Part shown: one piece after another, positions 13,246 through 31,172 of the stretch | Layout of the letters: the number at the start of each line of letters is the position of its first letter | Numbering within the stretch: the first letter of the stretch is position 1 | Virus record (IMG/VR): IMGVR_UViG_3300013094_000071 | Location: 1-51,391 of that record | DNA: 51,391 nucleotides | Source: a virus | Reading direction: 5' to 3' (one strand) | Translations under genes and position numbers: made by a program | Notes under the pieces: generated by a model | Told to the model about the DNA's origin: nothing | Databases searched by the model: none | What the model saw: the letters and a program-made list of their open reading frames with translations, nothing else

Positions 13246-16200
13246 ATGGCAGAATTTAAACTTGGTAGACTACGCTTTGTATGGCAAGGCAATTGGACCA
13301 CTGGTACAGCATACGTTAAAGACGACGTTGTAAGAATTAGTGGTAAATCTTATGTTTGCGTAGTAGGTCACACAGCATCCACGAATTTTATCACAGATTT
13401 AAATGCAGTTCCAACAAAATGGAATTTAGTTGCAGACGGATCTACATGGACTGGGACTTGGAATAATTCTACCTATTATAATACAAACGATCTTGTAAAA
13501 TATGGCGGAGTAGTTTATATCTGTAACACTCCACATCAAAGTGTTCCAGCATCGATTACATTAACCACAACTGGTGCAAGTGCATCTAACGGAACAGCAA
13601 CATTATCGTTTAATTCATCATTTACTATTAATGGTACAGTATATGCTAATGCAGTACAACCATTTTTAGTTGGTGCAACTATTGTTGTTTCTGGTTTTTC
13701 AAGCGCGGCTAATTTTAACGGAACATTTACCGTTACTGCTTGTACAACAACTAGTGTAAGTTATGCATTGATCGGTTCATACACTGACACTGTTGGTACT
13801 ATTACAGGTACTGCACAATCTGGATTGGAAGCTAGTTTATCAAATTGGACTACTTATGCTACCAGCATGAACTGGATTGGCAATTGGTCTATTAATACTC
13901 GATATAAAGACAATGACGTAATTAAGTACGGTGGCGAAACTTATGTTTGTAATACCGGCCACGTTAGTGCTAACACAGTTTTATTAGGATTAGAAGCTAA
14001 TCAAAGCAACTGGACATTATTTGCTGATGGCTTCAATTGGGAAACTGCATGGAGCAATGGAGTACACTATAAACTTAATGATGTAGTCACATATGGTGGT
14101 TATGTATATGTATGTAACACTCCTCACATTAGTGCGGCTTCAAGTCTTACACTTACTTCTACCAATTTTGTACTTAACGCCAACGTAGCTACAGCAACAT
14201 TTGCTCAACAAGTTATTCCACCATACGCAGTTGGTTCAACTATTACTTTAGCAGGATTTAGTCCTCTAACGACTTCTGGAAGTGTTAATAATGTAAACGC
14301 ATCCTTTACTGTTACTGCTTGTACAACTACTACAGTTTCTTTCGCATTAACTGGAACATATACAGTAGTAGTAGAAGGTACAATCACTGGAACAAGTCAG
14401 TTAGGTTTAGAAAACGATCAAAGCAAATGGGATTATTTCCACAAAGGATTTAATTATATTGCAGGAGGCTGGCAGCCTGATACACGATACAAGATTAACG
14501 ACATTGTTAACTATGCAGGAACTGCTGGTTCAACCGGTGGCGACACTTGGATCTGTACAACAGCACACACATCTACAGGATCATTTGTTCAAACTAACTG
14601 GGCAAGATTTGTAGAAGGTTTAACATATTATAACACATGGAGCAATACTACTGTATATACTCCGGGTGATCTTGTTACTTATGGCGGATTTAGTTACATT
14701 GCAACTTCAGTAGTACCAGCTGGCACAGTTCCACCAACAGATGTATCCAGTCCAACTACGTTAAACATAACTAACGCAACTAGTACAGCCAGTGTGGTTA
14801 CTTTAACATTTGCTACACAAAGTAGCATTCCGTTCCAAGCAGGACAAACCATTACTGTATCAGGAATGAGTCCAAGCGCATATAACGGACAATATGTTGT
14901 TACTGGTATTCCTTCGACCACCCAAGTACAATATTTGATTAATGATGGTCCGATTGGTGCTTATTCTATTTTAGGTACAGTAGCATCAAACAACTGGGCA
15001 TTATATACAACTGGATTTACATTAATCGGCGATTGGAGCAATGCTACAGCTTACCAAGTTGGTGATGTTGTTCGCTTAGGCGGTTACACATATTTGTGTA
15101 TCGTAAATAACTCTGCTACACAACCGCCAAATACTACATATTGGTCTAAATTAAATAGCGGTGTTCGTTGGAATGCTCCAGGTTTATCATATACTGGATT
15201 AACTACAACTAACGTAACTGTAACTAACGGTGCCGCAGCCGGAGCAACATTCTCGGTTAGCACCAGCGGTACTACTTATAGTTTAACTAAAACAGCTAAC
15301 GGTACAAATTATACCAACGGCGACATTATTAAGATTTTAGGTACAAGTGTTGGCGGTATTAGTCCATTCAACGATATTACAATTACAGTACTTACAACAT
15401 CAACGGGTGCAATAAGTACTTTCTCTTCAACAGGTTATGCAGTAACTTGGGCATCTGGCACACAGTATGTTGCTGGAGATGCAGTTGCATATGGTCCAAA
15501 TAGTTACATCTGTATTTTAGCACACACCGGTGCTACTGGTAACAGACCGGATAATGATATAACAGGTACATATTGGAACACATTAGTAGCTGGTGCAAGC
15601 ACAAGTATTTTAACTACTACCGGTGACATTGCATACTATGGTCCAGGTGGTGCAACACGTTTACCGATTGGCGCTAGCGGACAAGTTCTTAAAGTTTCAA
15701 ATTCTGGATACCCATCATGGGGATATTTTGGTATCGTTACAGATGTCTATTATGTTAGTAGCACAAATGGCGTAGATAGTCCAGCTCCTGGTTATGGCAC
15801 TACATTAGACAGACCATGGAAAACTATCGCATACGCGGCCAAACAAGTATACAATGGAACATATTTCCCAAACACCAGTAACTTATTAACTAGAAATAAA
15901 GCATGGTTAATAGCAGAAATGTACAACTGGATGAACTATGAAAAACAAAATAGTGTAACTCCGTTTACAACTGGTTCAACATATGATCCTTACAAAACAC
16001 AACGTGATGCAGGCTACGTAGTCGATGCAGTTATCTATGACTTAACACGTGGTGGAAATAGTCAAACAGTAGCGGCAGCATTGGCTTATTTCCAACAAGG
16101 AAGTACAAATACATTCTACGATACTGCGGTTGCAAGCGAAGTTGCTTTCTTCATAGCGTCTTTAAACTTCTTGTCAGGTTTAATGACATCAAACGCTATT

Positions 16201-19200
16201 ACAAATACTGCTCCTGCTACAATTTATCAAAATTCTACAGGATTGTATTCAGGAACAGCTAAACTTACAACATTGGCTATAACAGGTGCAAGCGGATTAA
16301 ATGGACAAGTTACATTTACATTTGCAACACAAACTAATTCTCCATTTGTTGTAGGAGAAGTTATTACAATTTCTAGCGTTAGCCCAGGTGCATACAACGG
16401 AACATATACCGTGTTGTCCATGACAACAAACAGTGTAACTGTTTCAAGCACAGTAACATCAACTTATGTTAGCGGTGGTAACATTGCTGGTTCGTTAATT
16501 AGTCAAACAATTGACAGTAACTACTCAGCAGAAACCGGCGCAGGTAGTGCAATTACTACATTAATGAGTATTATTACTACAGCATTAACTAATCAAAGTA
16601 CTGCTTCAATCCCAGCGGCAAATACTGGAACCACAAGTACTATCTTTATTAAAACTGGTACTTATAACGAAGTATTACCAATTATAGTTCCAGAAAACTG
16701 CGCATTAGTTGGCGATGAATTACGTGGAGTTATTGTACAACCATTCGGAACTACAGCAACATTTAGTGCTACAATATCAAATACTACATTAACTGCGTCA
16801 GCAATGACAGCAATATTATCTAGCCAAGGTATTACAGCAACAGCGTCTGGCACTTATGGTTCTACAGGTACAGGCGGTGTTGTTACTGTAGCTAGCACAT
16901 CAACTTTATCAACAGGTCATATAATTGTTGTTACTGGTTCAGGCGGTGGTGGCATTGCAGCCGGAACTTATTATGTAGGCTCAGTATTAACTGCTACAAC
17001 AATGACATTGGCTACCAGTTGGGCTAACGCATTAGCAGGTACATACATTACATTATCATCTGGTTCAATTTCAGGTACAACATTTACAGCATACGGAAGT
17101 ATTATTGTAGGTATGTTTGTTAACGGAACAGGAATTAGTGCTCCATTGCAAGTTACTGCACAGCTAACAGGCGCTACAGGTACTGCGGTTACAAGCTCAA
17201 CAGCTTCTGGATCTAGCGGTAGCTTTACAATTACATTAACTTCGTCAAACGGCGCTATTGCTGTAGGACAATTTGTTTCAGGAAACGGCGCAACTATTGG
17301 TGCAATTCCTACAAATACATTTGTTACAGCAGTTAATGGTACAACTGTAACATTAAGCAATGAATTAGTTTCTACATTAACTAGCACTACTGTTTATTTC
17401 TTTACACCAGGACAAACAGGAACTTACACATTAAATTCAACAGTTGTATCTCAATTGACATTATCTATCAGTAGTGAAACAATGACTGCTGGTTATGTAT
17501 CTGGTAACATGTTCTATGTAAGAAACGGATCTGGTGTTAGAAATATGACCTTATATGGTTTAACTGGTAGTAAAGGTACTCCAGTTACTATTTCTTCAGG
17601 AAGTATAACTGCAACAACAGCAGGTACATTTGGTACAACAAATACAGGCGGTTCAATTACTGTAGCTAGCACAGCTGGTATGGCTCCAGGTAATACATTT
17701 GTGGTTAGCGGTTCAGGTGGTAACGGATTATCTGCAACCACTTACTATATTGGTTCAGTATTAAACGGTACTACATTAACACTATCTACTACTTACAACT
17801 TATCATTAGCAGGTACATACATTACATTAACATCTGGTTCAATTTCAGGTACTACGTATGCATCTAACTATGGAACAGCTCGCCCAACTGGCGGTGCGTA
17901 TGTAAGTTTAGATCCAGGTACAGGCCCAAGCGATACAAGTGCTTGGATCTTTAGAAAATCACCTTACGTACAAAACGTAACAACATTTGGTACTGGTTGT
18001 GTCGGCTGTAAAGTAGACGGAACATTACACAACGGCGGAAACAGAAGTATTGTTGCTAACGACTTTACACAAGTGTTAAGCGATGGTATTGGTTTCTGGT
18101 TGTACGGCCCGGGCGCATTAGCAGAATTAGTTTCAGTGTTTACCTACTATAACCAAATTGGTTATTTGTCAGAAGCTGGCGGCAAAATGCGAGCAACTAA
18201 CGGTAACTGCTCATACGGTAGTTACGGTGTAGTAGCCGAAGGTTATGACTTAACCGAAGTTCCAGTAACCGCAGTGGTTAATAACAGATATACTGGTCCT
18301 ATCATTTCTAACGTTGTTACTGATTCTCTTAACACAGTTTATCGCGTTGAATTCACCAACGCAGGTTCTGCTGCCAACACAGCTACATTCTCGTTTGCTA
18401 GTTCAGGCGGTTATGGATTGACCAGTGTAGGAAATGAATTTAGAGATAATGCAGTATTTGAAACTCGTTGGTTAACCGGCGGTGCAAACTATATGACCGC
18501 AGCCAACACAGGACAAAGTGGTACAACAAATAGTTTCACTATTGCCGCGGTAGACACTAATATTAGTAGTGTGTATCAAGGAATGAGATTATTAGTAACT
18601 GGCGGTACTGGAGTTGGCCAAACAGGATTTATTGCTTACTATAATAACGGTAGTAAAATTGCACAAATGGCTAAAGAAAGTTTTACGCCATTAGCAATTA
18701 CTGGTTCAGTTAATGCAACAGCTAGTGCTACTTCTATTATTTCAGGAACATCCTTAATTCCAACTGGTACAGTTACTGGAGCATTTGTTCCTGGTATGTA
18801 TTTGTCTAGCGGTGGCACAGTTACCGCCGGCACATATATTACTCAACTTAACACTGGTTCAATTACAACAGGATCATTTGGTAATACAACTATTAGCTCA
18901 ACAGGCACAGTAGGTAGTATTACTGGTACTGGCCCTTGGACTGCTACAATTACCGGTATGTCTACAACTGCTGGATTGTTTGTTGGTTCTCCAATTACAG
19001 CCACATCGGGTTCTGGAACACTATACGGTGGAAGCCCAACTAGTGTTGTAGTAGCAAGTATTGTAAGCACTACTAGTATCACTTATACAGTCACTGGTGG
19101 TACTACACCTACTGCGGGTACTATTACTAACGTTAACACCCCAGTGTTATTAGCAAGTGCAGGATCAAGCAATATTGCATCAAACGCAATATTGAGTGGT

Positions 19201-22137
19201 GGCGGAACTACCGCTGGTACATACGTTAAAGGTATGATTAGTTCTAATGCTACAGCCGTAGTTACTGCTACATTTACTGGAACAAGTGGTACTAACACTA
19301 TTACTTTAAGTTCATTTACAGTAGGTAGTATTACATCAGTATCACTTGGACAATTTGTGTCTGGTACAAGTTCTACTACTAACATAGCAATACCAGCTGG
19401 TACATTTGTTACAGCAATTAACGTGTTTACTAACGTAATTACAATTAGTAACAATTTAATTGGTGCATTATCAGCAAGTTGCAGTATATATCCTGCAGGA
19501 ACAGCTGGTACTTATGCTATTAGCAATAGTGCAACTGGAACTCCAACAGCATCGACACAATATGTAATCAATATTAGTCAAAACCAAGTAAGTGCAACTG
19601 TTACTGGTACACAAAATACATTAACAGCTAGCAGTACTGCTACATTATACAATGGCATGCCATTGTATCTAAGTGCTCAAGTTGGTATCACTACAAGTAC
19701 TACTACATTGTATTATGCAGTAGGTGTAACAACTGGTCCTGGTGCAACTAACTTTAGTTTAGGTACAACTTCTACTGCTACTACTCCAGTAACAGTAAGT
19801 GGTACCAGTGGATTAAGCGGTACTTATGTATGGGCCGCTGGTTGGGATCATGTTGTTCCTGGCACTCCAATCAAAGCAAACTTAGATGTAACATCAACTT
19901 ACATTATCGAACCTAGATTAACATACACTAGCCCAGGATTTACTCCTACTGCCGGTACTGTAACTTCTGCTACATGGATTGATTGTATTTACGGAGATTT
20001 GAATGCTACGTATTCTACTATCTCAGCAACTGGCGGAACTGGTACAAGCGCAACATTTACTGTGGTTAAAACTGGTATTGCGTATGCAGTGACACAAGTA
20101 AGCGGCGGATCAAACTATACTATTGGCGATACATTAACTATTGCTGGTACAAGTTTAGGAGGTCTTGCTCCTGCAAACAATGTTACAATTACAGTTACCA
20201 ACGTTGGAACTCTTAACACTATTACTAACTTCACATTTACTGGTGCAGGTGCTGGTGGTATATATGTAGCAGTTACTAATAACAGCCAAACAGCAGGTTA
20301 CAGTACAAACGGCACAACATGGACTGTTGGTTCAACAATGCCTGCAAGTAGTAACTGGACTTCAGTTACAGCTGGTGCAGTCAGTGGTACAACTACTTGG
20401 GTAGCAGTACAAAATGGATCAAATAACTGTGCAGTAAGTACCAACGGTACATCATGGACAGCAGGCGGAAGTTTAGGCGTTGCTGTTAACTGGTCATCAG
20501 TAGCATATGGTAACGGTTACTTTGTAGCAATACAAAGCGGCGGAACTAATATGGTTTACAGTGCTAACCCAGCTGTATCATGGAGCGCAGGATCTGGATT
20601 ACCAAGTTCTACAACATGGAGTTCAGTAGCATACGGAAATGGTGTGTGGGTAGCAATTGCCTATGGTGGAACAACGTCTGCTTACAGTACAAACGTTAAC
20701 GCAAGTACATGGGTAGCAAGTGGTGGTTTGCCAAGCAACCAGTATTGGACTAGTGTAACATTTGGTAAAGGTAAATTTGTTGCAGTGGCCGCTCAGTCAA
20801 ATGTTTCAGCATATTCGTTTAACGGTATTACTTGGTACGCAAGTACATTCAACTTACCTTCTGTTCAAACATGGAACAAAGTACGTTATGGACAAGGTTT
20901 ATTCTTTGCAACCAACACTGATGCAACTACATTAGTAGCAACTTCGGAAGACGGTTTATTCTGGACAGCTCAAACAATGACAGCAGGTTCAGCAGGCGGT
21001 TGGCCAGCAGTAGCATTTGGTAATCCAAACAGCGTACCTTTATGGATCGCATTGACAAATAGCACTACTGTAGCTGAGAGCATTGTAACAGGTTGTACTG
21101 CACAAGGCAGAGCGGCAGTTACATTGGCCACAGGTGTTACTGGTTTTAGAATGGTAGAACCAGGAAGCGGTTATGCAAGTACACCAACAATGACAATTAC
21201 TGATCCAAACCAAACTACTGCGGCTACATGGACAGTACGTGTTGGTACTGGTGCAGTAGCTAACCCAACTTATACTAACAGAGGTACAAGTTATGCAACG
21301 GCTAGTGCAACTGTATCAACAAATGGTTATGCAGATATATACCAACCAGGTAGTTACATTAACGTAAGCGGACTAACAGTTAATCCAACAGCAGGATCTA
21401 ACGTGTTGTTTGCTGGTAATAGTAACGTTTACAAATTGGTACAAGTTACTAACTATTTAGGAACAGGTAGTGGTATTGCACCATATACCGCACAATTCCA
21501 AATTAATCCTGCGTTGACTACTTCAAATGCACCAACAAATGGCACAGCAATTACATTAAGATTGAAATACAGTCAAGTACGTTTGACTGGACACGATTTC
21601 TTAAGTATTGGTACTGGTAACTTTGTTAATACAAATTACCCAGGAACACCATTTATTGCGGCTAATAGTAACTATCAAACAGTTAGCAATAACGGTGGTC
21701 GTGTGTTCTTTACAAGTACTGACCAAGATGGTAACTTTAACGTTGGTAATTTATTCTCAGTTCAGCAAGCTACTGGTGTTACAACCCTAAACGCTAGTGC
21801 GTTTAACGTTGCTGGTTTGAACAGTTTAACAATTGGTGCAGTTAGTTTAGGTACAAATAGCGCAACTATTACACAATTTAGTACAGATCCGTACTTTACA
21901 GCAAATAGTGACAATATTTTACCTACGCAGAAAGCGATTAAATCGTATATTACAAGCCAAATTGGTGGCGGCGGTAGTACATTGAATGTAAATACATTAA
22001 CAGCTGGTATAATTTACATTGCTGGCAATACTATCACAACAACAACTGGTGGACAAATCAAGGTATCTAACAAGATGTACTTTGTGGGTGGTATTGACGG
22101 ACAACCACTAGCTATGAACTTTTTACTATTAAATTAA
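13246..22137 (+). CDS. Giant tail fiber 2, enlarged paralog of fiber 1
   Basis: 2963 residues, the largest gene in the window. The domain order matches fiber 1: about eight CBM5/12-like units (1-780), the VYYVSSTNGVDSPAPGYG block (about 834), pectin-lyase-like section (KTGTYNEVLPIIVPENCALV, about 1134, to GGKMRATNGNCSYGSYG, about 1645), six Asp-box-like repeats (STNGTTW, STNGTSW, SFNGITW, SEDGLFW; about 2340-2590) and the same C-terminal domain (LTGHDFLSIGTGNF). It is 973 residues longer mainly because Thr/Gly modules were added: about 180 extra residues inside the beta-helix section and about 380 between KIAQMAKESF and GWDHVVPGTP. Probably a host-binding fiber of alternative specificity to fiber 1; whether both are on one virion is unknown. 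Confidence 0.75.
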   Translation: MAEFKLGRLRFVWQGNWTTGTAYVKDDVVRISGKSYVCVVGHTASTNFITDLNAVPTKWNLVADGSTWTGTWNNSTYYNTNDLVKYGGVVYICNTPHQSVPASITLTTTGASASNGTATLSFNSSFTINGTVYANAVQPFLVGATIVVSGFSSAANFNGTFTVTACTTTSVSYALIGSYTDTVGTITGTAQSGLEASLSNWTTYATSMNWIGNWSINTRYKDNDVIKYGGETYVCNTGHVSANTVLLGLEANQSNWTLFADGFNWETAWSNGVHYKLNDVVTYGGYVYVCNTPHISAASSLTLTSTNFVLNANVATATFAQQVIPPYAVGSTITLAGFSPLTTSGSVNNVNASFTVTACTTTTVSFALTGTYTVVVEGTITGTSQLGLENDQSKWDYFHKGFNYIAGGWQPDTRYKINDIVNYAGTAGSTGGDTWICTTAHTSTGSFVQTNWARFVEGLTYYNTWSNTTVYTPGDLVTYGGFSYIATSVVPAGTVPPTDVSSPTTLNITNATSTASVVTLTFATQSSIPFQAGQTITVSGMSPSAYNGQYVVTGIPSTTQVQYLINDGPIGAYSILGTVASNNWALYTTGFTLIGDWSNATAYQVGDVVRLGGYTYLCIVNNSATQPPNTTYWSKLNSGVRWNAPGLSYTGLTTTNVTVTNGAAAGATFSVSTSGTTYSLTKTANGTNYTNGDIIKILGTSVGGISPFNDITITVLTTSTGAISTFSSTGYAVTWASGTQYVAGDAVAYGPNSYICILAHTGATGNRPDNDITGTYWNTLVAGASTSILTTTGDIAYYGPGGATRLPIGASGQVLKVSNSGYPSWGYFGIVTDVYYVSSTNGVDSPAPGYGTTLDRPWKTIAYAAKQVYNGTYFPNTSNLLTRNKAWLIAEMYNWMNYEKQNSVTPFTTGSTYDPYKTQRDAGYVVDAVIYDLTRGGNSQTVAAALAYFQQGSTNTFYDTAVASEVAFFIASLNFLSGLMTSNAITNTAPATIYQNSTGLYSGTAKLTTLAITGASGLNGQVTFTFATQTNSPFVVGEVITISSVSPGAYNGTYTVLSMTTNSVTVSSTVTSTYVSGGNIAGSLISQTIDSNYSAETGAGSAITTLMSIITTALTNQSTASIPAANTGTTSTIFIKTGTYNEVLPIIVPENCALVGDELRGVIVQPFGTTATFSATISNTTLTASAMTAILSSQGITATASGTYGSTGTGGVVTVASTSTLSTGHIIVVTGSGGGGIAAGTYYVGSVLTATTMTLATSWANALAGTYITLSSGSISGTTFTAYGSIIVGMFVNGTGISAPLQVTAQLTGATGTAVTSSTASGSSGSFTITLTSSNGAIAVGQFVSGNGATIGAIPTNTFVTAVNGTTVTLSNELVSTLTSTTVYFFTPGQTGTYTLNSTVVSQLTLSISSETMTAGYVSGNMFYVRNGSGVRNMTLYGLTGSKGTPVTISSGSITATTAGTFGTTNTGGSITVASTAGMAPGNTFVVSGSGGNGLSATTYYIGSVLNGTTLTLSTTYNLSLAGTYITLTSGSISGTTYASNYGTARPTGGAYVSLDPGTGPSDTSAWIFRKSPYVQNVTTFGTGCVGCKVDGTLHNGGNRSIVANDFTQVLSDGIGFWLYGPGALAELVSVFTYYNQIGYLSEAGGKMRATNGNCSYGSYGVVAEGYDLTEVPVTAVVNNRYTGPIISNVVTDSLNTVYRVEFTNAGSAANTATFSFASSGGYGLTSVGNEFRDNAVFETRWLTGGANYMTAANTGQSGTTNSFTIAAVDTNISSVYQGMRLLVTGGTGVGQTGFIAYYNNGSKIAQMAKESFTPLAITGSVNATASATSIISGTSLIPTGTVTGAFVPGMYLSSGGTVTAGTYITQLNTGSITTGSFGNTTISSTGTVGSITGTGPWTATITGMSTTAGLFVGSPITATSGSGTLYGGSPTSVVVASIVSTTSITYTVTGGTTPTAGTITNVNTPVLLASAGSSNIASNAILSGGGTTAGTYVKGMISSNATAVVTATFTGTSGTNTITLSSFTVGSITSVSLGQFVSGTSSTTNIAIPAGTFVTAINVFTNVITISNNLIGALSASCSIYPAGTAGTYAISNSATGTPTASTQYVINISQNQVSATVTGTQNTLTASSTATLYNGMPLYLSAQVGITTSTTTLYYAVGVTTGPGATNFSLGTTSTATTPVTVSGTSGLSGTYVWAAGWDHVVPGTPIKANLDVTSTYIIEPRLTYTSPGFTPTAGTVTSATWIDCIYGDLNATYSTISATGGTGTSATFTVVKTGIAYAVTQVSGGSNYTIGDTLTIAGTSLGGLAPANNVTITVTNVGTLNTITNFTFTGAGAGGIYVAVTNNSQTAGYSTNGTTWTVGSTMPASSNWTSVTAGAVSGTTTWVAVQNGSNNCAVSTNGTSWTAGGSLGVAVNWSSVAYGNGYFVAIQSGGTNMVYSANPAVSWSAGSGLPSSTTWSSVAYGNGVWVAIAYGGTTSAYSTNVNASTWVASGGLPSNQYWTSVTFGKGKFVAVAAQSNVSAYSFNGITWYASTFNLPSVQTWNKVRYGQGLFFATNTDATTLVATSEDGLFWTAQTMTAGSAGGWPAVAFGNPNSVPLWIALTNSTTVAESIVTGCTAQGRAAVTLATGVTGFRMVEPGSGYASTPTMTITDPNQTTAATWTVRVGTGAVANPTYTNRGTSYATASATVSTNGYADIYQPGSYINVSGLTVNPTAGSNVLFAGNSNVYKLVQVTNYLGTGSGIAPYTAQFQINPALTTSNAPTNGTAITLRLKYSQVRLTGHDFLSIGTGNFVNTNYPGTPFIAANSNYQTVSNNGGRVFFTSTDQDGNFNVGNLFSVQQATGVTTLNASAFNVAGLNSLTIGAVSLGTNSATITQFSTDPYFTANSDNILPTQKAIKSYITSQIGGGGSTLNVNTLTAGIIYIAGNTITTTTGGQIKVSNKMYFVGGIDGQPLAMNFLLLN
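16857..17859 (+). repeat. TYYV/VGM module cluster inside the beta-helix section of fiber 2
   Basis: Two closely similar TYYV modules (AAGTYYVGSVLTATTMTLAT and SATTYYIGSVLNGTTLTLST) each end in AGTYITL.SGSISGT. They flank VGM- and VGQ-type modules that end in SSETMTAGYVSGNMFYVRNG. Fiber 1 has only one short VGM-type module at the matching place. Confidence 0.65.
17938..17969 (+). repeat. 32-base identical tract shared with giant fiber 1 (copy 2)
   Basis: Same bases as 10282-10313. Flanking codons differ at third positions, so the perfect run stands out. Confidence 0.8.
18685..19830 (+). repeat. In-frame module insertion of about 382 codons in fiber 2
   Basis: In fiber 1 the text runs KVITVFTESTGVAGWDHVVP without a break. 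In fiber 2 the same flanks (KIAQMAKESF and AAGWDHVVPG) are separated by roughly 1.15 kb of Thr/Gly modules. Edges are approximate because the flanks were aligned by eye. Confidence 0.75.
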
Positions 22138-22171
22138 CGGAGATTTAACATATGGCAACAGGACGATTAGG
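22135..22171 (+). repeat. 37-base direct repeat, copy 1 (leader and first codons)
   Basis: Identical to 22481-22517. It covers the ribosome site ACGGAG, the start codon and the codons for MATGRLG, showing that the downstream gene was duplicated together with its leader. Confidence 0.9.
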
Positions 22172-22478
22172 AGCAATAGACCTACTAACAGCGGCAACGG
22201 ATACATTGCTATATACTGCTCCGGCTGGTAACTTTACTGTAGCAACAGTTTCGATATGCAACCGAACAAACACGGATGCAACAGTAAGATTGGCTATTAG
22301 CTCATCTACTACAACTATTGCGGCAGCTGAATTTTTAGAATACGAATGTGATTTACTACCACACGGTGTGCTTGAGCGCACTGGTTTAGTACTACAAGCT
22401 GGATATTCTATTTTATTCCGCGGAAGTATTACTGGTATTAATGCTGTAGCATACGGCATTGAAACGTCAACATCATAA
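22152..22478 (+). CDS. Small virion protein, tandem copy 1
   Basis: 108 residues beginning MATGRLGAIDL and ending NAVAYGIETSTS. It is nearly collinear with the next gene, with about 70 percent identical residues by eye and the same length. The body is beta-rich with one conserved block (HGVLERTGLV.QAGYSIL). No enzymatic motif. The start is fixed by ACGGAG about nine bases upstream. It directly follows giant fiber 2 and resembles the fiber-plus-small-sandwich units on the left of the window. A role as fiber-associated or decoration subunit is inference. It has two Cys that copy 2 lacks. Confidence 0.6.
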   Translation: MATGRLGAIDLLTAATDTLLYTAPAGNFTVATVSICNRTNTDATVRLAISSSTTTIAAAEFLEYECDLLPHGVLERTGLVLQAGYSILFRGSITGINAVAYGIETSTS

Positions 22479-22480: not shown

Positions 22481-22517
22481 TAACGGAGATTTAACATATG
22501 GCAACAGGACGATTAGG
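22481..22517 (+). repeat. 37-base direct repeat, copy 2
   Basis: Second copy of the leader-and-start repeat described at 22135-22171. Confidence 0.9.
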
Positions 22518-22824
22518 GGTAGTAGATATTAATCCAGCGGCAACGGATACTCTGTTATATACTGCACCAGCAGGTTATTTTACAGTAGCAACAGTTTCAT
22601 TTGCAAATCGAAGCAATAATGCTGTAACTGTAAGACTAGGAATTAGCTCATCCGCTACTACTATTGGTAGTAATGAGTTTATAGAGTATGAAACAGAAGT
22701 GTTATCGCATGGAGTTTTAGAGCGTACAGGGTTGGTTATTCAAGCTGGATATTCAATTCTAGTTAGATCTAGCCAAATAAACGTAAATGCGGTGGCATAT
22801 GGCATTGAGACGTCAACGTCATAA
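22498..22824 (+). CDS. Small virion protein, tandem copy 2
   Basis: 108 residues, product of the local duplication with 22152. The first seven residues and the last 13 or so are essentially unchanged, while surface-like positions in between differ (for example ICNRTNTDA against FANRSNNAV). This suggests the fold and termini are constrained and loops are free to change. It uses the same ribosome site. The stop TAA lies inside a late-promoter-like octamer that serves the next gene. The role is unknown, as for copy 1; having both could give a hetero-oligomer or two exchangeable surface proteins. Confidence 0.6.
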   Translation: MATGRLGVVDINPAATDTLLYTAPAGYFTVATVSFANRSNNAVTVRLGISSSATTIGSNEFIEYETEVLSHGVLERTGLVIQAGYSILVRSSQINVNAVAYGIETSTS

Positions 22825-22827
22825 ATA
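22820..22827 (+). promoter_or_regulatory. Late-promoter-like octamer CATAAATA
   Basis: Overlaps the preceding stop codon; 21 bases before the ATG at 22849, with AAAGGAA as ribosome site between them. It could drive the adhesin and chaperone block. Confidence 0.45.
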
Positions 22828-22848: not shown

Positions 22849-23178
22849 ATGGGACGATATATCACAACAACAGGAACTGCAGGGTCAGTAGTCCGCTACA
22901 ACACAGGTACAGCTTATACCATTCAAACGAATGATCGTGTAATTTGCACTGCTGGCGGAATGACGTTAACTTTGCCTCCTACAGCGGCAGCATTAGACGG
23001 AGACATTTGTCAAGTCATTGATGCTACCGGTGCGTTTGCTGGTAGCCCAGTGACCATTGCGCAAAACGGTTCAGCGTACATTGCTAACCAAAATGCTAAC
23101 TTGAGCTTAAACGTTAACTATGTATCTGTAACGTTTATCTATAGCAGTGCGTATGGTTGGCTGATCGGCAGCAAATAA
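22849..23178 (+). CDS. Small fiber-knob-like protein
   Basis: 109 residues. The pattern YTIQTNDRVICTAGGMTLTL, then GDICQVIDATGAF, then ITIAQNGSAYI and finally an aromatic GWLIGSK end resembles the free-standing C-terminal knob domain found at the tip of many phage fibers and endosialidase-type tails (nucleation of beta strands around a TLTLP core). Here it is a separate gene. It has its own late-promoter-like sequence and a good ribosome site (AAAGGAA). It precedes the cysteine-rich block and may be part of the same structure. Not assigned to a named family. Confidence 0.55.
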   Translation: MGRYITTTGTAGSVVRYNTGTAYTIQTNDRVICTAGGMTLTLPPTAAALDGDICQVIDATGAFAGSPVTIAQNGSAYIANQNANLSLNVNYVSVTFIYSSAYGWLIGSK

Positions 23179-23195
23179 AAAGGAGCGGGTAATAA

Positions 23196-23999
23196 ATGAC
23201 AACTTCACTATCGAGTTTAGTAGCACCTTCATTAGGTACTGTCAGCTACTATAAACAAAATTCAGTAATAGCTGTTTATAATAGTAGTGTGGGTAACGGA
23301 TTAAACGGCGGACAATGCTGTTTATGGACTGCGCCCGGACCAGGCTGGGTAATTTTTGAAATGTGGGGCGCCGGTGGTGATGGTGCAGGCGCAAGCTGTT
23401 GTGCTGGCCCAGGATGTGGTATGGGCGCAGGCAATTATTCAAGAAAATATTTAACAGTATCAGCAGGATTGCAATTTACAGTATGTGCTGCCAGTTCAGG
23501 ATGTTGCTGGTGTTGTAACTGCGGAAGCGGTGGTGCTCAACAATGTGCGGCATTTAATTATCCTAGTTATGTCTTATGTGCTAACAGTACATTAGTTGCT
23601 TGTGCCGCAGGCGGTAATCCAGGTACAGTTGTTTGCGGTAAAGGTAATCAACAATGTACAGGTGTTTGTGCTCCAGGCGGAATGTATGGTACAACATGTT
23701 GTGCTACTGGAGATTATACAGCTGGATCTTTTAACAGCAGTTTTAAAGATAGTAACTATTGTAACCAGTACATGTTTACATGGACTACTATGCCATTGAA
23801 AGGTACAGGAACATCATTATATGGATTTGACTATTGCAGTCCAGGTATCCAACACTGCGGACAATCATCATTTCCTAACCAAAATATTACAGCGTGGCCA
23901 GGCGGAGCTGGTGCTATGGGTAATGCGTGTGCAGGATCTACACAGTTCTATGGACAAAACGGCGCTGGCGGCCTAGTATTAATCACTTATGGAACTTAA
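23196..23999 (+). CDS. Glycine- and cysteine-rich adhesin-like protein 1
   Basis: 267 residues. After a 40-residue lead it has GGQCCLWTAPGPGWVIFEMW followed by GAGGDGAG, the layout of phage glycine-rich domains (WTAPAG...VEVWGGGGGG). It carries 23 cysteines by my count, including CC, CCWCC and CNC clusters. The N-terminal MTTSLSS is shared with the adhesins at 24758 and 25541. The C-terminus NGAGGLVLITYG is also shared. Gly-rich loops are the receptor-contact elements of T4-type gp38 adhesins, so a tip-adhesin role is a reasonable inference. The cysteines are unexplained: they could form disulfides after release, or bind metal. AAGGAGCGGG precedes the ATG. It is followed by a chaperone-like gene. 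Confidence 0.6.
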   Translation: MTTSLSSLVAPSLGTVSYYKQNSVIAVYNSSVGNGLNGGQCCLWTAPGPGWVIFEMWGAGGDGAGASCCAGPGCGMGAGNYSRKYLTVSAGLQFTVCAASSGCCWCCNCGSGGAQQCAAFNYPSYVLCANSTLVACAAGGNPGTVVCGKGNQQCTGVCAPGGMYGTTCCATGDYTAGSFNSSFKDSNYCNQYMFTWTTMPLKGTGTSLYGFDYCSPGIQHCGQSSFPNQNITAWPGGAGAMGNACAGSTQFYGQNGAGGLVLITYGT

Positions 24000-24008
24000 A
24001 GGATAGAT

Positions 24009-24758
24009 ATGCCAGAAACTATTAAAATTACAAAAGATTTCACATACGATATACCAGACAGTTATTTGGCTCAGACAAATACGCAAGGTAAAACAGCAAC
24101 TTGGACTTATCAAGGTCCAAGCCGTATGTGGATACATGCAGATACTGCAACAGGAAAAATTATGCCTACTCCTGTGTACTTAGACGAACATGAAGGCGAA
24201 CTAATTGGCGATCCAGGTCCACACTTAAAGAAGATTCTTGTAGATGCGAATGTAGACACATTATTAGCGGCACTGATTCATGATGAAACTGATATTCATC
24301 ATCCAGATTTTCCTAAGACACAAGAAACTTTGCCAGACGGTCATGTACATATAATGCACGACCCACAAAGTCCAAGTCATACATATGAAACAAGTGAAAT
24401 CACATATGATTTCACAAATAACAAGTGGAATACTCCTTTTCCTTGGAGAAAGCCGCATCAAACAATGGCAGATGTAATGCATGCTAGAAATTCTAGATTG
24501 AAACATTCAGATAATATCATGCATCAGTTAATTGCTCAAGGCAAAGACACTTCCGAATGGGTCGAGTACAGACAAAAATTACGCGATTATCCAGCACTTA
24601 TGCAAGGAGTTGATCCTTGGAAATGGAAATTTCCAGATGCTCCAGACGACCATGTAGTCAATAAAGTAGCTGAGGAGCATGTAGATCCTGCGTTTATCGC
24701 TCCTGCGGCACCAATTCCACCAGTGCCGGTTCAACCAAATAATGGAGCACCTCAATAA
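24009..24758 (+). CDS. Tail fiber assembly chaperone-like protein 1
   Basis: 249 residues. The N-terminal half (FTYDIPDSYLAQTNTQGKTA) is shared with the gene at 26323. The C-terminal half has RNSRLKHSDN, then WVEYRQKLRDYPALMQGVDP and WKWKFPDAPDD, close to the RD.LL..TDW...PDAP...W..YRQALRDLP signature of phage tail assembly chaperone (APC/Tfa-like) proteins. It ends in a Pro-rich tail (APAAPIPPVPVQP). Family members help fold or trimerise the fiber encoded next to them; here that would be the cysteine-rich adhesins. AAGGA precedes the ATG, and the stop overlaps the next ATG (TAATG), so it is translationally coupled to adhesin 2. His-rich in its middle (DIHHPDF, HVHIMHD). Confidence 0.6.
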   Translation: MPETIKITKDFTYDIPDSYLAQTNTQGKTATWTYQGPSRMWIHADTATGKIMPTPVYLDEHEGELIGDPGPHLKKILVDANVDTLLAALIHDETDIHHPDFPKTQETLPDGHVHIMHDPQSPSHTYETSEITYDFTNNKWNTPFPWRKPHQTMADVMHARNSRLKHSDNIMHQLIAQGKDTSEWVEYRQKLRDYPALMQGVDPWKWKFPDAPDDHVVNKVAEEHVDPAFIAPAAPIPPVPVQPNNGAPQ

Positions 24759-25531
24759 TGACAACATCATTATCATCAATATTACCAGATTCAAGATGGA
24801 GTATTAATGCTCCAGCAACATTTACACAGTTATATGTTTATAATACAAACATAAACACAGCATACAATGGCGGTCAATGTTGTTTATGGACAGTGCCAGC
24901 CAACGTAAACCAAGCTAAATTTGAATTATGGGGCGGAGGTGGCGCAGGCGGTGGCGCATGCTGTTGCCAAATGCAAATGTGTAGTGGCGGTTCAGGCGAC
25001 TATGTACGTAAAACTGTAAGGGTTATTCCTGGATGCCAAATTACAATTTGTGCTGGCGGAAGCACTTGCTGTACTACATGTTGTTGTGGACCTGGCGGTT
25101 TTAATAGCTTTGTCTGTTTAAGCGGTGGTACATATCCGATTAGCGTAACAGCTGGCGGCGGAGTTAGCGGCCAAACAAACTGTAGCAACTGGAATCAGTG
25201 CGAAGGTTACTATGCTGGATGCGGAAGTGCAGGCGGCAACAGTGGCGGCGACTTTGTTATGTGTGGCGGCTGGAATACATTCCATACATCACAACCAACC
25301 TGCGGTTACGATGGCTGGGGTTGGGTACCAGGTACAACATACTGGACAACTGGTACTGCTATGACTAGAGATTATTGTCAAAATTATACCGGAGGCAATG
25401 CGTTAGGAAACGGCCAAGGACAAATTTCCTTCCCAGGAAGCGGTGGCGCTGGTGGAGCTAACTCTTACGGAAACGGTACTTGCTGGGGCGCATTTGGTCT
25501 TGGCGGCATGGTTTTGGTAACATTTAGATAA
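24758..25531 (+). CDS. Glycine- and cysteine-rich adhesin-like protein 2
   Basis: 257 residues with 21 cysteines by my count, including ACCC, STCCTTCCC and scattered singles. It has the GGQCCLWTVPANVNQAKFEL start of the glycine-rich domain, a GGGGAGGG stretch, then SGGSGDYVRKTVRVIPGCQI, which recalls the Y.KKT..V.PG...I motif of Gly-rich fiber tips. It ends LGGMVLVTFR, like its paralogs. The central part between the shared ends differs strongly among the three, as expected if it contacts a varying receptor. Translation starts in an overlap with the chaperone-like gene. No catalytic motif. An adhesin role is inference from composition and from the gene pairing. Confidence 0.6.
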   Translation: MTTSLSSILPDSRWSINAPATFTQLYVYNTNINTAYNGGQCCLWTVPANVNQAKFELWGGGGAGGGACCCQMQMCSGGSGDYVRKTVRVIPGCQITICAGGSTCCTTCCCGPGGFNSFVCLSGGTYPISVTAGGGVSGQTNCSNWNQCEGYYAGCGSAGGNSGGDFVMCGGWNTFHTSQPTCGYDGWGWVPGTTYWTTGTAMTRDYCQNYTGGNALGNGQGQISFPGSGGAGGANSYGNGTCWGAFGLGGMVLVTFR

Positions 25532-25540
25532 GGATAAAAG

Positions 25541-26317
25541 ATGACAACAAGTTTAAAATCGATAGCATTCCAATATAGCGGAACTAATGCGCCATCAAAT
25601 CCAACAGAATTTACAGTTTATAATTCAAGTTTTACTACAGTAGCCAACGGTGGCACTTGTTGTAACTGGACTGCACCTGCAGGAACTACCTGGGTTACAT
25701 TTGAAATCTGGGGCGGCGGAGCAAGCGGCAGTGGTTCTTGCTGTTGCGGTGGCGGCGGCTCTGGCGGAGCTGGCGGTTATGGTGTAAAAACTGTAACAGC
25801 ATCAGCAACTGGCGGCCTAGCTGGCTGTTCTTATACAATTTGTGCGGCAAGTAGCAGTAATATTTGCTGTAATACTAATGCTGGTTCTGGATATGCAAGT
25901 TATGTTAACGGATACGGATTAAGTAATTTCTGTGCAAACGGTGGATATCCAACTTGCGGTACATGTTTCTTGTGGAACAGTTGTTATTTCTGTCGCTTCA
26001 TTAACTACTGTTGTGCTAGCTCTAGTGCTACAGGTTGTGGATCTGTTTGCGGCGCTGATTTTTCATTATGCGCACCAAGCGGTGGATACATTGGACAAAC
26101 AACTGGTGGTGGTTCACAAGGTGTTCAAGGATTAGGCGCTGCCGCTCCGATGACACGTTCTGGCCCATTTGCAGACGGATATTTTAACATGAGTTGCGGT
26201 AACGGATTTACCATTGAGTTTCCAGGCGGAGGTGGTGCAACATTGGGTTGTACTTATAACTGTCAGTGTTGTGGAATTGCCGGTGCCGGCGGACTAGTAT
26301 CAGTAACATACGGATAA
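25541..26317 (+). CDS. Glycine- and cysteine-rich adhesin-like protein 3
   Basis: 258 residues with 24 cysteines by my count, the most of the three (about nine percent). Same plan: MTTSLKS start, GGTCCNWTAPAGTTWVTFEI, a CCCGGGGSGGAGGYG stretch, variable middle (CGTCFLWNSCYFCRFINYCC) and GAGGLVSVTYG end. The middle has more aromatic residues than the others. It lies nine bases after adhesin 2 and five bases before the second chaperone-like gene, so a single transcript is likely. The ribosome site is AGGATAAAAG. The three paralogs could be alternative tips or subunits of one structure; the sequence does not decide. Confidence 0.6.
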   Translation: MTTSLKSIAFQYSGTNAPSNPTEFTVYNSSFTTVANGGTCCNWTAPAGTTWVTFEIWGGGASGSGSCCCGGGGSGGAGGYGVKTVTASATGGLAGCSYTICAASSSNICCNTNAGSGYASYVNGYGLSNFCANGGYPTCGTCFLWNSCYFCRFINYCCASSSATGCGSVCGADFSLCAPSGGYIGQTTGGGSQGVQGLGAAAPMTRSGPFADGYFNMSCGNGFTIEFPGGGGATLGCTYNCQCCGIAGAGGLVSVTYG

Positions 26318-26322
26318 AATAA

Positions 26323-27483
26323 ATGGCAAATATATCACAAACTTTTACATACGCGATTGCAGATGATTACTTAGCGCAAACAACTGCGCTGAATAAAACT
26401 GCTACTTGGACATATAACGGCCCTGATAAAATAGTGACTTTTGTAGACACTGAATCAGGTCGTTGGTTAACTCACATTTATACAGAAGATCAAGCCGCAG
26501 ACATTCCTACACCGCTAAATGCTACTCGTGTAGAAATTGACTGTGTTGCTAATCCTTTATTAGCATGTTTATTGGGTGCAGACACCACTGGACATAATTT
26601 AGCATCTCACAGTGTTGAAGACTTACCAGATGGTACAGTTTATGCTAGATTAGATCCAACTCCACCGTTGCATACATATGATGTTACACAGTTAGAATTT
26701 AATTCAGCAACTGGTACATTTAATATGCCTCCTCCATTCTTAAAGCCTTATACAAGTTGGCATGAATTAAGATTCTGGAGGAACTCATTGTTAGATGATT
26801 CCGATCATGTACTATTACCAGATACTCCGGCTCATGTAGTAGAAAAATGGACTACCTATAGAAATAAATTATTTAATTTGCCTCAAGTTCACGGTGCTGC
26901 CAGCAGTATTAAAACTACTATAAATTTATCTGCAACATCTCCAATTAACACAGCAGGACAAGTTGTAATTGAAGTAGCCGATATTACTGGTGTTACAGTA
27001 GGTATGCACTTAGGCATGCAAGACCGAAAAGCAAGAAATATTTTTGGACCACGAACAGAAGTAGTATCGATTAACAACAAACAAGTTACACTTACAGTTC
27101 CGTTGATGTTTACCCCTACTGCTGACAATAACGCAATTTCATTTTTATCAGTTCCAACTACTCATCCATGGAAGATTCAATCATATGATGTGCCTGATGC
27201 TAATTTTAGAGAATCAACACTAGAATTTAATTTAACCGTAGATACTAGTGCATCTTCTCCAGTTAATACAGCAGGCCAAACAATTTTACAAGTAACAGAT
27301 GTGTCTACTATTACACAATTAGGGTTACAAATTGTTGAAAGCACAAATACTGTATTTTCAAATGATACTCGTGTATTAAATATGGATGCAACTACTAAAC
27401 AACTTACATTAAGTAAGCCAATTTTAGTTACGCCTGTAGGTGCAATTACTGTAACTATGAAACATATACATCAGTCTTATTAA
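26323..27483 (+). CDS. Tail fiber assembly chaperone-like protein 2, with inserted modules
   Basis: 386 residues, paralog of the 249-residue chaperone-like protein. Shared parts are FTYAIADDYLAQTTALNKTA at the N-terminus and RNSLLDDSDHVLLPD with WTTYRNKLFNLPQVHG further on. In the short paralog YPALMQG is followed directly by VDPWKWKFPDAPD. Here LPQVHGA is followed by about 87 residues of a beta-rich module before THPWKIQSYDVPD resumes. A second copy of that module (SSPVNTAGQTILQVTDVSTI) forms the C-terminus, replacing the Pro-rich tail. The fold of the chaperone part is thus split by an insertion. It ends the fiber run and is followed by a bidirectional terminator. Function is inferred from its paralog. 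Confidence 0.6.
   Translation: MANISQTFTYAIADDYLAQTTALNKTATWTYNGPDKIVTFVDTESGRWLTHIYTEDQAADIPTPLNATRVEIDCVANPLLACLLGADTTGHNLASHSVEDLPDGTVYARLDPTPPLHTYDVTQLEFNSATGTFNMPPPFLKPYTSWHELRFWRNSLLDDSDHVLLPDTPAHVVEKWTTYRNKLFNLPQVHGAASSIKTTINLSATSPINTAGQVVIEVADITGVTVGMHLGMQDRKARNIFGPRTEVVSINNKQVTLTVPLMFTPTADNNAISFLSVPTTHPWKIQSYDVPDANFRESTLEFNLTVDTSASSPVNTAGQTILQVTDVSTITQLGLQIVESTNTVFSNDTRVLNMDATTKQLTLSKPILVTPVGAITVTMKHIHQSY
26899..27158 (+). repeat. Module inserted within chaperone-like protein 2
   Basis: The segment SPINTAGQVVIEVADITGVT to NNAISFLSVPT lies between two halves that are contiguous in the paralog at 24009. A related module follows at about 27240-27480. Edges are approximate. Confidence 0.7.
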
Positions 27484-27499: not shown

Positions 27500-27527
27500 A
27501 AAAAAGGAGCTTTATGCTCCTTTTTTT
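27500..27527. terminator. Bidirectional rho-independent terminator
   Basis: AAAAAA-GGAGC (27500-27510), loop TTTAT, GCTCC-TTTTTTT (27516-27527). It separates the plus-strand fiber run from the convergent minus-strand carbamoyltransferase, and works for both since A and T tracts flank the stem. Confidence 0.9.
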
Positions 27528-29325
27528 AATTTGCTACTTTGATTAGCTTACCATATTCTGGCAAATACAAGTATTCTATTTCACTATTAAACAATGTATG
27601 TACTGCATCATCTAATGTTTCTACTAGTGGATCACCACCTAAATTAAAACTAGTATTGAATAAAATTGGAACTCCTGTACGATTATAGAACGCTTTAATT
27701 AAATCATAATAGTTTTTATTTTGCTCTTCTGTAACTGTTTGTATACGGCAAGTTCCATCCACGTGGATAATGCTTGGAATCTTTTCTTCAACACCTGGTT
27801 GGCAATTTACAGCATACATCATGTAAGGGCTATCTTCCATACCACGTAAATCAAACCAATCATGCACATAATCTTGCAAGATACTACCAGCAAATGGTCG
27901 GAAATATTCACGATGTTTAACTTCATTTACAAAATCTTTACCATCTTCGTAAGTTGGGTTAAACAAAATACTTCTGTTACCTAATGCTCTAGGACCGTTT
28001 TCACTGCGTCCTTGATAAAATGTAACAATTTGTTTGTTAAGTAACAGATCTACGATATCCTCGTTGGTAGCGTTTGTAATTTCGGCATCGTATTTCTTTA
28101 CAACTTTGTCAAAATCGTCTTGTGTATACAAATATTCAAATCCTAAATACAATCCGTCTTTGCTATAATCGATATCACTGCGTGGATCAATACCTTTATA
28201 GAACATCAATGCCGCACCGATTGCAGTTCCTGCGTCATTACTAATAGGTTCTACATAAATTTCAATGCCATCGTCTTTTAACTGATCTAAATAGTAGTAA
28301 TTAGCCACACAGTTGAGTCCGTATCCTCCACTAATAACTACTTTCTTATGGCCAGTTTTTTCACTAGCCATGCGAATTAATCTAACAACTTGTTCCTGTG
28401 TTTGTGTTTGGCAAGCATAAGCCAAATCTCTACGGTTATCTAGTTGTGTAATATCTTCACCATTAGCTGACATTAGTTCGCTAAACAACATAGCATTAAC
28501 TTTTGCACCATTTGGATAAGTGGGTACAATTAAATTCCTGTTGGCTAACGGGAATATAGTGGAATCGTCAAATAATTTTGGAATGTTATTGTTAGGTTTG
28601 CCGTATGGAAATAGTCCCATAGTCTTACCAGCTTCAATACTAGACCAACCACAATATTCTGTAACAGCTTCATATACCTTAGTAATACCTGCACGGTCTG
28701 TAATTAGTGCTTCGTGCGACATATTTGGCTCGTCGTAACTAGTGCTGTCAAAATTTGAAATAAATGCACCGGGATTAGGACCACGCAATCCAATATGCTT
28801 GTATACTGTGGTAAAATTATTAGGATATGAACAATCGTAAATACTTTCTGTTTCCCAGCCTGTAACACTTTCTCCATTTACATTTAATGGAAGGAATGTT
28901 CCTGCACCATCCACAATTAATGCGGCCGCTTCTGAAAAGCCTGAACGATAAAATGCACAAGCCGCATGTAATTTATGATGTATATGACTAAGGTCGACTA
29001 CTTGCGGGTGATGTTGTGCATTTTCTTTTCTGGAAATTAAACCTAATTTACGGGCAAGACCTGTATAAACGTCGTCTCCACTAAAGTCAACTCTACCAGC
29101 AGTATCTTGTAGTTTTTGTGTATGTGCAATTACAAGATAGTCTAGTGTATCTGTATAATCTAAAATCTTAAGCATAGCGGCATATGGTCCGCCATCATAC
29201 TTGTGTCTGCTTAACCGTTCTTCTTCGATACTAAACACAATTTCTCCATTTTTAAGGAGACAAACACTACTATTATGTCCTCTAGCAACGCCGGCGATCC
29301 AAATATCTCTTTTTAAATTTTTCAT
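27526..29325 (-). CDS. NodU/TobZ-type carbamoyltransferase
   Basis: 599 residues, usual length for the family, which transfers a carbamoyl group from carbamoyl phosphate (through a carbamoyl-adenylate) to a hydroxyl of a sugar or similar acceptor. The N-terminal ASKHA/Kae1-like domain shows GHNSS (16-20), EEERLSRHK (34-42) and the His cluster H116, H117, H120 expected for metal binding. VISGGYGLNCVANYYY and EPISNDAGTAIGAAL follow. The C-terminal YrdC-like half has QGRSENGPRALGNRSIL near residue 435 and PILFNTSFNLGGDPLVET. It appears intact. AAGGA precedes the ATG. It is the last gene of a cassette with a glycosyltransferase and two SGNH proteins, so the acceptor is likely a glycan on the host surface or virion; the real acceptor is unknown. 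Confidence 0.92.
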   Translation of the reverse strand: MKNLKRDIWIAGVARGHNSSVCLLKNGEIVFSIEEERLSRHKYDGGPYAAMLKILDYTDTLDYLVIAHTQKLQDTAGRVDFSGDDVYTGLARKLGLISRKENAQHHPQVVDLSHIHHKLHAACAFYRSGFSEAAALIVDGAGTFLPLNVNGESVTGWETESIYDCSYPNNFTTVYKHIGLRGPNPGAFISNFDSTSYDEPNMSHEALITDRAGITKVYEAVTEYCGWSSIEAGKTMGLFPYGKPNNNIPKLFDDSTIFPLANRNLIVPTYPNGAKVNAMLFSELMSANGEDITQLDNRRDLAYACQTQTQEQVVRLIRMASEKTGHKKVVISGGYGLNCVANYYYLDQLKDDGIEIYVEPISNDAGTAIGAALMFYKGIDPRSDIDYSKDGLYLGFEYLYTQDDFDKVVKKYDAEITNATNEDIVDLLLNKQIVTFYQGRSENGPRALGNRSILFNPTYEDGKDFVNEVKHREYFRPFAGSILQDYVHDWFDLRGMEDSPYMMYAVNCQPGVEEKIPSIIHVDGTCRIQTVTEEQNKNYYDLIKAFYNRTGVPILFNTSFNLGGDPLVETLDDAVHTLFNSEIEYLYLPEYGKLIKVAN

Positions 29326-29334
29326 CTTAGTTCC

Positions 29335-30261
29335 TTAAAATCCTACGTACTGTGTAGGCCAGTAAAAATCTTTAGCAGACTGCGGAAAATTTCCTCGTCT
29401 ACTCATTAGTTGTATAAATGCAGCCTTGTCCGTTTTCATTCTCATCTGCAATTCATTGACACTTTTTGTTAATTCTATAGTTTCTTGTTTCCACTTTTCA
29501 GACAGATTCAATTTACTTTCTAATTCCTGCTCAACCCATAAAAAATGATGGCTAGTACTAGGGTGCGGATCTATGCCTGTGCCTTCTTCCTGGGTTTCAA
29601 ATTCATAATACAAATCTGGATAGTCCTTACTAAATTTTTCTAAAGGAGTTAACCAATGATCCGCACGGTCTTCCCAAATTGGTTTTTCATATATCTTCAA
29701 TGGTTTTGCAAATTCCCAACCTATATTTTTATTATTACCAAACACTTCTCTTAAATTTACAGGACGTTCTCCATACTTGTCTTTAGGTCTTAAATCGTGC
29801 CCTAATTCACGTATGTCTCCGATACTGGTCATATACCAAGTGCATCCTGTAGATTCTAATAAACTTTGTGTCATGCTAATAAAATTCAAGGTATGCATAA
29901 AATATGCTACTTCACTGAAGAAATTATCAATCCACTTTTTATCATACAATTCAGAATTCAAATAATTAAAAATGCTACCACGAGTTTTCCAACCTGCTGG
30001 AACCATGTTACCATCCGGCCCTTTTTGAAATTCAACATAATAGTCATTACGTAAATGCGTACTCCACTGCACAATTATAACATCGTCTGATGTAAAACTG
30101 TGTCTAATATTTGCTTCATTTACTCGTTCTGCAATAGCACGATTTCCCAAACCGCTTAACCCCCAGTTTTCGTAATAGTCAAATTCTTTACTAATTAAAT
30201 TCGACCAAGTGGGCCATGCATAGCTGGTATAACTACATCCAAATGTAAACAGTCTTTTCAT
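29335..30261 (-). CDS. SGNH hydrolase-like protein, copy 2
   Basis: 308 residues. FTFGCSYTSYAWPTW gives the block I Ser (S10 in GCSYT). NWGLSGLGNRAIAERV supplies the Gly block. VIIVQWSTHLRNDYY corresponds to the block III region, where GxND is replaced by WSTH. DPHPSTSHHFLWV near residue 240 holds the Asp and His of the C-terminal catalytic pair. SGNH enzymes cleave or move acyl esters, for example on polysaccharides; phage members are poorly characterised. Paralog of the adjacent upstream gene, whose stop overlaps this start (TAATG). It contains Trp-rich sequence and no signal peptide, so it acts in the cytoplasm or on the virion. Possibly an acetyl transferase or esterase for the same glycan as its neighbours. 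Confidence 0.65.
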   Translation of the reverse strand: MKRLFTFGCSYTSYAWPTWSNLISKEFDYYENWGLSGLGNRAIAERVNEANIRHSFTSDDVIIVQWSTHLRNDYYVEFQKGPDGNMVPAGWKTRGSIFNYLNSELYDKKWIDNFFSEVAYFMHTLNFISMTQSLLESTGCTWYMTSIGDIRELGHDLRPKDKYGERPVNLREVFGNNKNIGWEFAKPLKIYEKPIWEDRADHWLTPLEKFSKDYPDLYYEFETQEEGTGIDPHPSTSHHFLWVEQELESKLNLSEKWKQETIELTKSVNELQMRMKTDKAAFIQLMSRRGNFPQSAKDFYWPTQYVGF

Positions 30262-31169: not shown

Positions 31170-31172
31170 TGT

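Follow-up and report, generated by a model that had tools for sequence, protein, structure and literature searches.

Genes of the Locus

The stretch analysed here, called the window, is the entire virus record IMGVR_UViG_3300013094_000071, 51,391 bases long. Between positions 23196 and 27483 five plus-strand genes follow one another, three for proteins rich in cysteine (Cys) and glycine (Gly), named G1 to G3, and two, A1 and A2, for proteins of a tail-assembly chaperone family, in the order G-A-G-G-A. The operon to which they appear to belong (22849-27483) very probably encodes the receptor-binding tip of a long tail fibre. The putative tip subunits are G1 (23196..23999, 267 residues, 23 Cys), G2 (24758..25531, 257 residues, 21 Cys) and G3 (25541..26317, 258 residues, 24 Cys). 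Their Cys share is 8.6%, 8.2%, and 9.3%, respectively, with 18-21% Gly; the remaining 29 listed genes of the window hold a mean of 0.57% Cys in 15,713 residues, so this excess is far beyond chance. The three are about 37% identical to one another and all match by profile, over about 230 residues, PHROG 4205, a family of unknown function (phrog_4205, expectation value (E) 1.4e-12, 1.2e-26, and 1e-29 for G1, G2, and G3). G2 also scores 33.7 bits against PF21722 Gly_rich_2, above the cut-off of 24.3, and relatives at two other loci (L240, L251) score 42-45. A preliminary description made from the DNA letters had listed three paralogs of 257-267 residues with 21-24 Cys (8-9%), their CCC and CCWCC clusters, the gene order, and a TAATG overlap at 24758, where the stop of A1 overlaps the start of G2; open reading frames and composition bear out each of these points. 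Its conserved ends and variable middle were also recovered, the mean column entropy being 1.7 both for residues 1-10 and for the C-terminus, 1.3-1.5 for 41-70, and 2.5-3.1 for 161-210; variability is also high for residues 11-20 (3.4).

The two interleaved genes had been described as APC-like, and this was confirmed. A1 (24009..24758, 249 residues, no Cys) reaches 32.3 bits (8.6e-8) and A2 (26323..27483, 386 residues) 27.2 bits (3.4e-6) against PF16778 Phage_tail_APC, both above the curated Pfam cut-off of 26.6 bits. By profile they belong to PHROG 9740, again of unknown function (phrog_9740, 4.7e-30 and 2.5e-22). A sequence search of the PDB matched the chaperones over a short stretch to 2kz6, an uncharacterised protein, and a 58-row chaperone alignment held no stretch conserved enough to serve for scanning. 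A2 is extended at its C-terminus by about 190 residues, which hold two copies of one module (SPINTAGQVVIEVADITGVTVGM / SPVNTAGQTILQVTDVSTITQLG), and the whole A2-type chaperone varies widely in length among relatives, from 205 to 496 residues.

Predicted Fold of the G Proteins

G3 was modelled by AlphaFold with 113 relatives, and the model had a predicted local distance difference test score (pLDDT) of 84 and a predicted template modelling score (pTM) of 0.84. Compared with the PDB by Foldseek, this predicted chain found as its best match the tail fibre of phage Pam3 (7ypx_A, E 4e-6, probability 1.0, template modelling scores 0.52/0.53). The matches comprised the Pam3 entries 7ypx_A and 7yfw_a and the Bxb1 tail tip, followed by the ectodomain of ALK/LTK, which combines a tumour necrosis factor (TNF)-like and a glycine-rich part. 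Against BFVD the best matches were relatives from phages S-CAM3 and P-SSM2. The model has a 4-residue helix (5-8) ahead of its first strand and no long N-terminal helical shaft. S16 gp38 (6F45), built of a beta-helix and a polyglycine II sandwich, was not among the 50 PDB matches listed for G3, and a sequence search of the PDB gave no relative of the G proteins. The predicted fold is thus like that of Pam3 gp24, a TNF-like plus glycine-rich domain, and not like that of gp38. Of the earlier proposal of a gp38-type Gly-rich adhesin, the adhesin part is upheld by the tail-fibre fold, and the gp38 type is not. A structure prediction of the trimer had been suggested as a check; the prediction for the single chain gave a confident model resembling a solved phage tail fibre; together with the PF16778 chaperones this fold supports the reading as an adhesin with its chaperones.

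Number and History of the Paralogs

The gene order of the window, which the preliminary description had suggested looking for in marine phage genomes, recurs elsewhere. In a first survey we found 56 distinct GAGGA loci and 48 GGGA loci, and the G genes numbered exactly three wherever the locus was intact. Loci reached via the chaperone alone likewise had three, so this rule is not an artefact of searching with G. An automatic count over the non-edge loci of a wider survey gave three G genes in 137 loci, two in 52, six in 2, four in 1, and five in 1; the locus with five is a six-gene array cut by a contig end, and a few of the loci with two are calling errors. Corrected, the tally is roughly 140 distinct loci with three G genes and about 46 with two. 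The four apparent single-G loci all lie at contig ends, and none was found among the intact loci surveyed. Searches of whole records (long contigs and the phages S-CAM1, S-CAM3, and S-SSM7) gave three G genes. This constrained paralog number across relatives is new here and is invisible from the window sequence alone. G genes nearly always occur in sets of three, of two, or of two threes and, at intact loci, never singly, and they therefore probably assemble jointly into a mixed tip.

Relatives are encoded on hundreds of IMG/VR contig stretches and in cultured phages. In the Synechococcus phages S-CAM1 and S-CAM3 the cassette lies between the fibre and carbamoyltransferase genes, with three G genes (24-36 Cys each) and one chaperone; three G genes occur also in S-SSM7, S-SSM6a, and Sf-FS3, and two in P-SSM2 and P-SSM5. 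No G relatives were found at E 0.001 in Syn9, S-SM1, P-SSM4, Syn19, S-PM2, S-CRM01, HTVC008M, or T4. A single-protein tblastn with G2 gave no match in phages or viral contigs, probably because of low-complexity filtering and divergence; the alignment-based searches succeeded. Among 20 long relatives psbA was present in an S-CAM1-like record only, so that most relatives give no hint of the host. The module was also seen on contigs of metagenome-assembled genomes labelled Actinomycetota, Flavobacteriales, Neomarinimicrobiota, and Euryarchaeota (L163-L168); these copies are probably co-binned phage DNA.

In a tree built from 186 G proteins, G2 and G3 of the window type each form one clade and G1, assigned to the G1 clade of the GAGGA layout (layout I), needs two changes; the G positions are therefore separate, long-kept subunits. 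The GGGA loci form two further groups, each holding its own three G, which makes three lineages overall. One ancient triplet with strict orthology was rejected by the approximately unbiased (AU) test (p 1e-64 for all G1, 3e-38 for all G2, and 5e-36 for all G3). Repeated triplication, or homogenisation within loci by gene conversion, may have produced the lineage-specific triplets; by either history the set stayed at three, which argues for a three-part assembly. Three arrays of six G genes with one chaperone were found (L246, L254, and L245/L247 read together). In them g1 groups with g4 and g3 with g6 (support 99/96 and 96/89), g2 with g5 more weakly, and this order (abc)(a'b'c') means that the triplet was duplicated as a unit. 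Four G genes were found in one case (L147). In G-A-G-A-G-A loci (L251, L240) every G has its own small gene after it, and most of these match PF16778 weakly or above the cut-off.

These counts bear on the main alternative arrangement, in which each paralog would form its own homotrimer, giving the phage three kinds of tip, carried on separate fibres or one behind another, for the binding of several receptors. A homotrimer is indeed what the closest solved fibre forms (PMC9608196), and window paralogs about 37% identical with variable middles are as expected for different receptors. Separate homotrimers nevertheless predict a free drift of copy number, including loci with a single gene, of which there are none among the intact loci. 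It also speaks against them that three G genes recur in separate lineages, that six-gene arrays repeat the whole triplet in order, and that one chaperone serves all three G in GGGA loci. We consider such separate tips rather unlikely.

Cysteine Pattern

About ten Cys columns are nearly invariant (40, 41, 67-69, 101, 131, 191, 219, and 242 in G3 numbering), as seen among sequences about 30-40% identical, and Cys makes up 7-12% of the G proteins across relatives. CC pairs occur 2.4-fold over shuffles, and CxxC is not enriched (observed/expected 0.98). The likeliest use of these residues would be disulfides formed after release, and phage Milano offers a precedent for extensive virion disulfides (PMC10811340). 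The cysteines could instead bind metal, be it zinc, copper, or an iron-sulfur centre, in a protein that would still be the fibre tip. The enrichment of CC, the near-invariant columns, and a Cys-Cys covariation without disulfide-like pairs would suit metal; the spacing typical of a CxxC knuckle shows no enrichment, however, and the Milano virion is a precedent for many disulfides. Metal binding is accordingly judged improbable. The preliminary description had left the choice between disulfides and metal open, and of these metal is weakened by the contrast between CxxC and CC, while disulfides remain something that we infer. A search of 20 long relatives for the sulfhydryl oxidase Evr1_Alr gave no match, and its control also matched nowhere.

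Late Operon Signals and Neighbouring Genes

The T4-type late-promoter core ATAAATA lies at 22821..22827 (+), 28 base pairs (bp) before the ATG at 22849. The motif is depleted in the window, with 6 copies against 25 expected from shuffles (13219, 22821, and 32192 on the plus strand, 43306 on the minus strand, 45209 and 50307 on the plus strand). Three copies stand 27-28 bp before start codons, namely, those of a 2963-residue fibre gene (27 bp), of the 109-residue gene at 22849, and of a gene at 32219. Among GAGGA relatives the core was found at most 600 bp before G1 in 47 of 50, at a distance of about 350-390 bp from the first Cys-rich gene among the relatives listed, that is, ahead of the 109-residue gene; inside the clusters just 4 copies were found in 199 kb. 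A hairpin terminator (27500..27526, RNA fold -14.2 kcal/mol, z -3.9) closes the operon and faces the convergent carbamoyltransferase gene; the pattern scan, which takes only stems followed by a run of T, did not list it. Judged by motif and position, the three G genes and both A genes appear to be transcribed late as one unit with the 109-residue gene, as would be expected of genes for virion assembly. With the cores that precede structural genes, the late operons of this virus can also be mapped readily.

Many other genes of the window have T4-like structural matches (tail sheath, tail tube, neck, virion proteins, and very long fibres). Upstream of the module is the gene of the long tail-fibre protein (13246..22137 (+), 2963 residues; phrog_9851 tail fiber protein, E 1.9e-131), and a gene of this type precedes the module in S-CAM1, S-CAM3, P-SSM2, and S-SSM7 also. 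The preliminary description had seen here a dedicated host-recognition module with chaperones, and the G3 fold, PF16778, the fibre gene upstream, and the operon with its late promoter all support it. It is accordingly very improbable that the G proteins lie outside the fibre tip, decorating another virion surface or acting outside the virion. Such a role would agree with the annotation of the cultured relatives (S-CAM1, S-CAM3, S-SSM7, Sf-FS3, and P-SSM2), which is hypothetical only, no proteomics placing these proteins. It fits poorly with a fold that matches a tail fibre, with APC chaperones adjoining the G genes, with their constant place shortly after the long tail-fibre gene, and with the late operon.

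Between the fibre gene and the operon lie two tandem 108-residue paralogs, a tail-fibre-like accessory protein (22152..22478 (+), phrog_11338 tail fiber protein, E 7e-10), which has the same place in S-CAM1, and its copy (22498..22824 (+), phrog_11338, E 3.6e-8); the S-CAM1 counterpart is single and has 106 residues. The first gene of the operon (22849..23178 (+), 109 residues) matches phrog_31104 (E 7e-9), with weak tail/baseplate matches, and is in the same place in S-CAM1; its product may be an adaptor joining fibre and tip. Further upstream (7216-13188), a 1990-residue protein with six matches to the carbohydrate-binding module CBM_5_12 (Pfam E 4e-40) is a probable second fibre or glycan-binding protein. 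On the minus strand, adjoining the tip module (27526-32120), are genes for a carbamoyltransferase, two related proteins of 302 and 308 residues that start with FGCSYT, and a PHROG 8954 protein; in cyanophages the PHROG 8954 and carbamoyltransferase genes likewise come after the module. In Sf-FS3 a gene annotated as a prolyl 4-hydroxylase-type Fe(II)/2-oxoglutarate (2OG) dioxygenase directly follows the chaperone, the same place being annotated 'minor coat protein' in S-SSM7 (L180, L182), and in P-SSM2 (L179) an annotated cysteine dioxygenase is found a few genes downstream of the module. Such a dioxygenase-type neighbour might modify the Cys-rich proteins.

Proposed Assembly of the Tip

We propose that G1, G2, and G3 would each be a TNF-like jelly roll bearing a bundle of glycine-rich loops, like Pam3 gp24, and would probably dock through their short conserved N-terminal segment. 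These subunits would be made late and be folded and brought into register by the chaperones A1 and A2. The three would then join into an obligate heteromer, most probably a single 1:1:1 heterotrimer, and bind the host surface by their variable loops. The cysteines would stay reduced in the cytoplasm and link into a disulfide network after virion release, so that the glycine-rich bundle would be stapled within chains and perhaps between them. For the module of the window we lean, with modest confidence, towards such a heteromeric, probably 1:1:1, tip with disulfide armour. Its extension to a widespread T4-like group is more tentative and somewhat short of an even chance: an asymmetric obligate heterotrimer locked by disulfides after release, whose triplet arose or was re-formed in several lineages and in one was duplicated whole to give two tips.

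Several results weigh against this proposal. A third layout, GAG, has two G genes and one chaperone (P-SSM2 type), so that three is not universal and the rule is 'several', not strictly three; a statement of 'always exactly three' was dropped for this reason. The AlphaFold model of G3 is a monomer, and G1 (13.6 bits) and G3 (13.0) fall below the Gly_rich_2 cut-off. Gains and losses of Cys within a chain gave no clean pairs, and between chains, compared with permutations of the chain labels, they showed a weak co-tendency short of significance (p 0.065 and 0.26); in several G groups odd Cys counts are about as frequent as even ones. A1 was modelled with a pLDDT of 91.7, and its best match among PDB folds had an E of 0.34, with no significant match to the two-domain chaperone fold of gp25, so the chaperone link rests on PF16778; the same mechanism as that of Pam3 gp25 is not shown by the model. 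Within the literature library searched there were no virion proteomics for the G proteins and nothing on Cys-rich cyanophage fibres or S-CAM1 proteomics. In the two-gene GAG lineage (L179, L209, L213, L234) the G proteins have an extra heptad-like N-terminal region, and these regions may form a mixed coiled coil.

To our knowledge, every receptor-binding fibre tip solved so far is either a homotrimer or one chain mounted on a homotrimer. A tip of three different subunits, if true, would be a host-recognition design of a new kind, which could read three features of a surface together and alter each by itself. The proposal gives a testable function to gene families carried as hypothetical in culturable cyanophages, and it raises the question of why proteins folded in a reducing cytoplasm hold 8-12% cysteine.

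Comparison with Known Systems

Pam3 gp24 (PDB 7YPX, 7YFW) forms a trimeric fibre and is folded by its chaperone gp25 in a 3:3 complex (PMC9608196). It shares with the module the TNF-like and glycine-rich fold, as predicted for G3, and a dedicated tail-fibre chaperone. In Pam3 one fibre gene gives a homotrimer, whereas the intact loci here hold two, three, four, or six paralogs each; gp24 docks to the baseplate by a long N-terminal helical shaft, in place of which the G proteins have a short N-terminal segment. The 7-12% Cys of the G proteins and a chaperone model without a match to gp25 also set the module apart. S-CAM1 and S-CAM3, whose G and A proteins are direct sequence relatives, have the cassette of the window in the form of the fibre, proteins of 106 and 109 residues, three Cys/Gly-rich genes (PHROG 4205), a chaperone (PHROG 9740), and a carbamoyltransferase nearby. 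They differ in that their chaperone is single (GGGA), each G protein has more Cys (24-36), and the genes of the triplet have no one-to-one orthologs in the window. In gp38 of T-even phages and S16 (PDB 6F45), as in the module, glycine-rich loops would stand at the tip of the long fibre, but gp38 is a single chain built on a beta-helix and a polyglycine II sandwich. The gp37 trimer has three pockets, which the three N-terminal helices of gp38 occupy (PMC6851490), a docking that the three chains of the window module could share among them. Agrobacterium phage Milano has a virion cross-linked by many disulfides (PMC10811340), which would be its likeness to the module; its structural proteins hold about 2.1% Cys, compared with 8-9% here, and the proteins are different.

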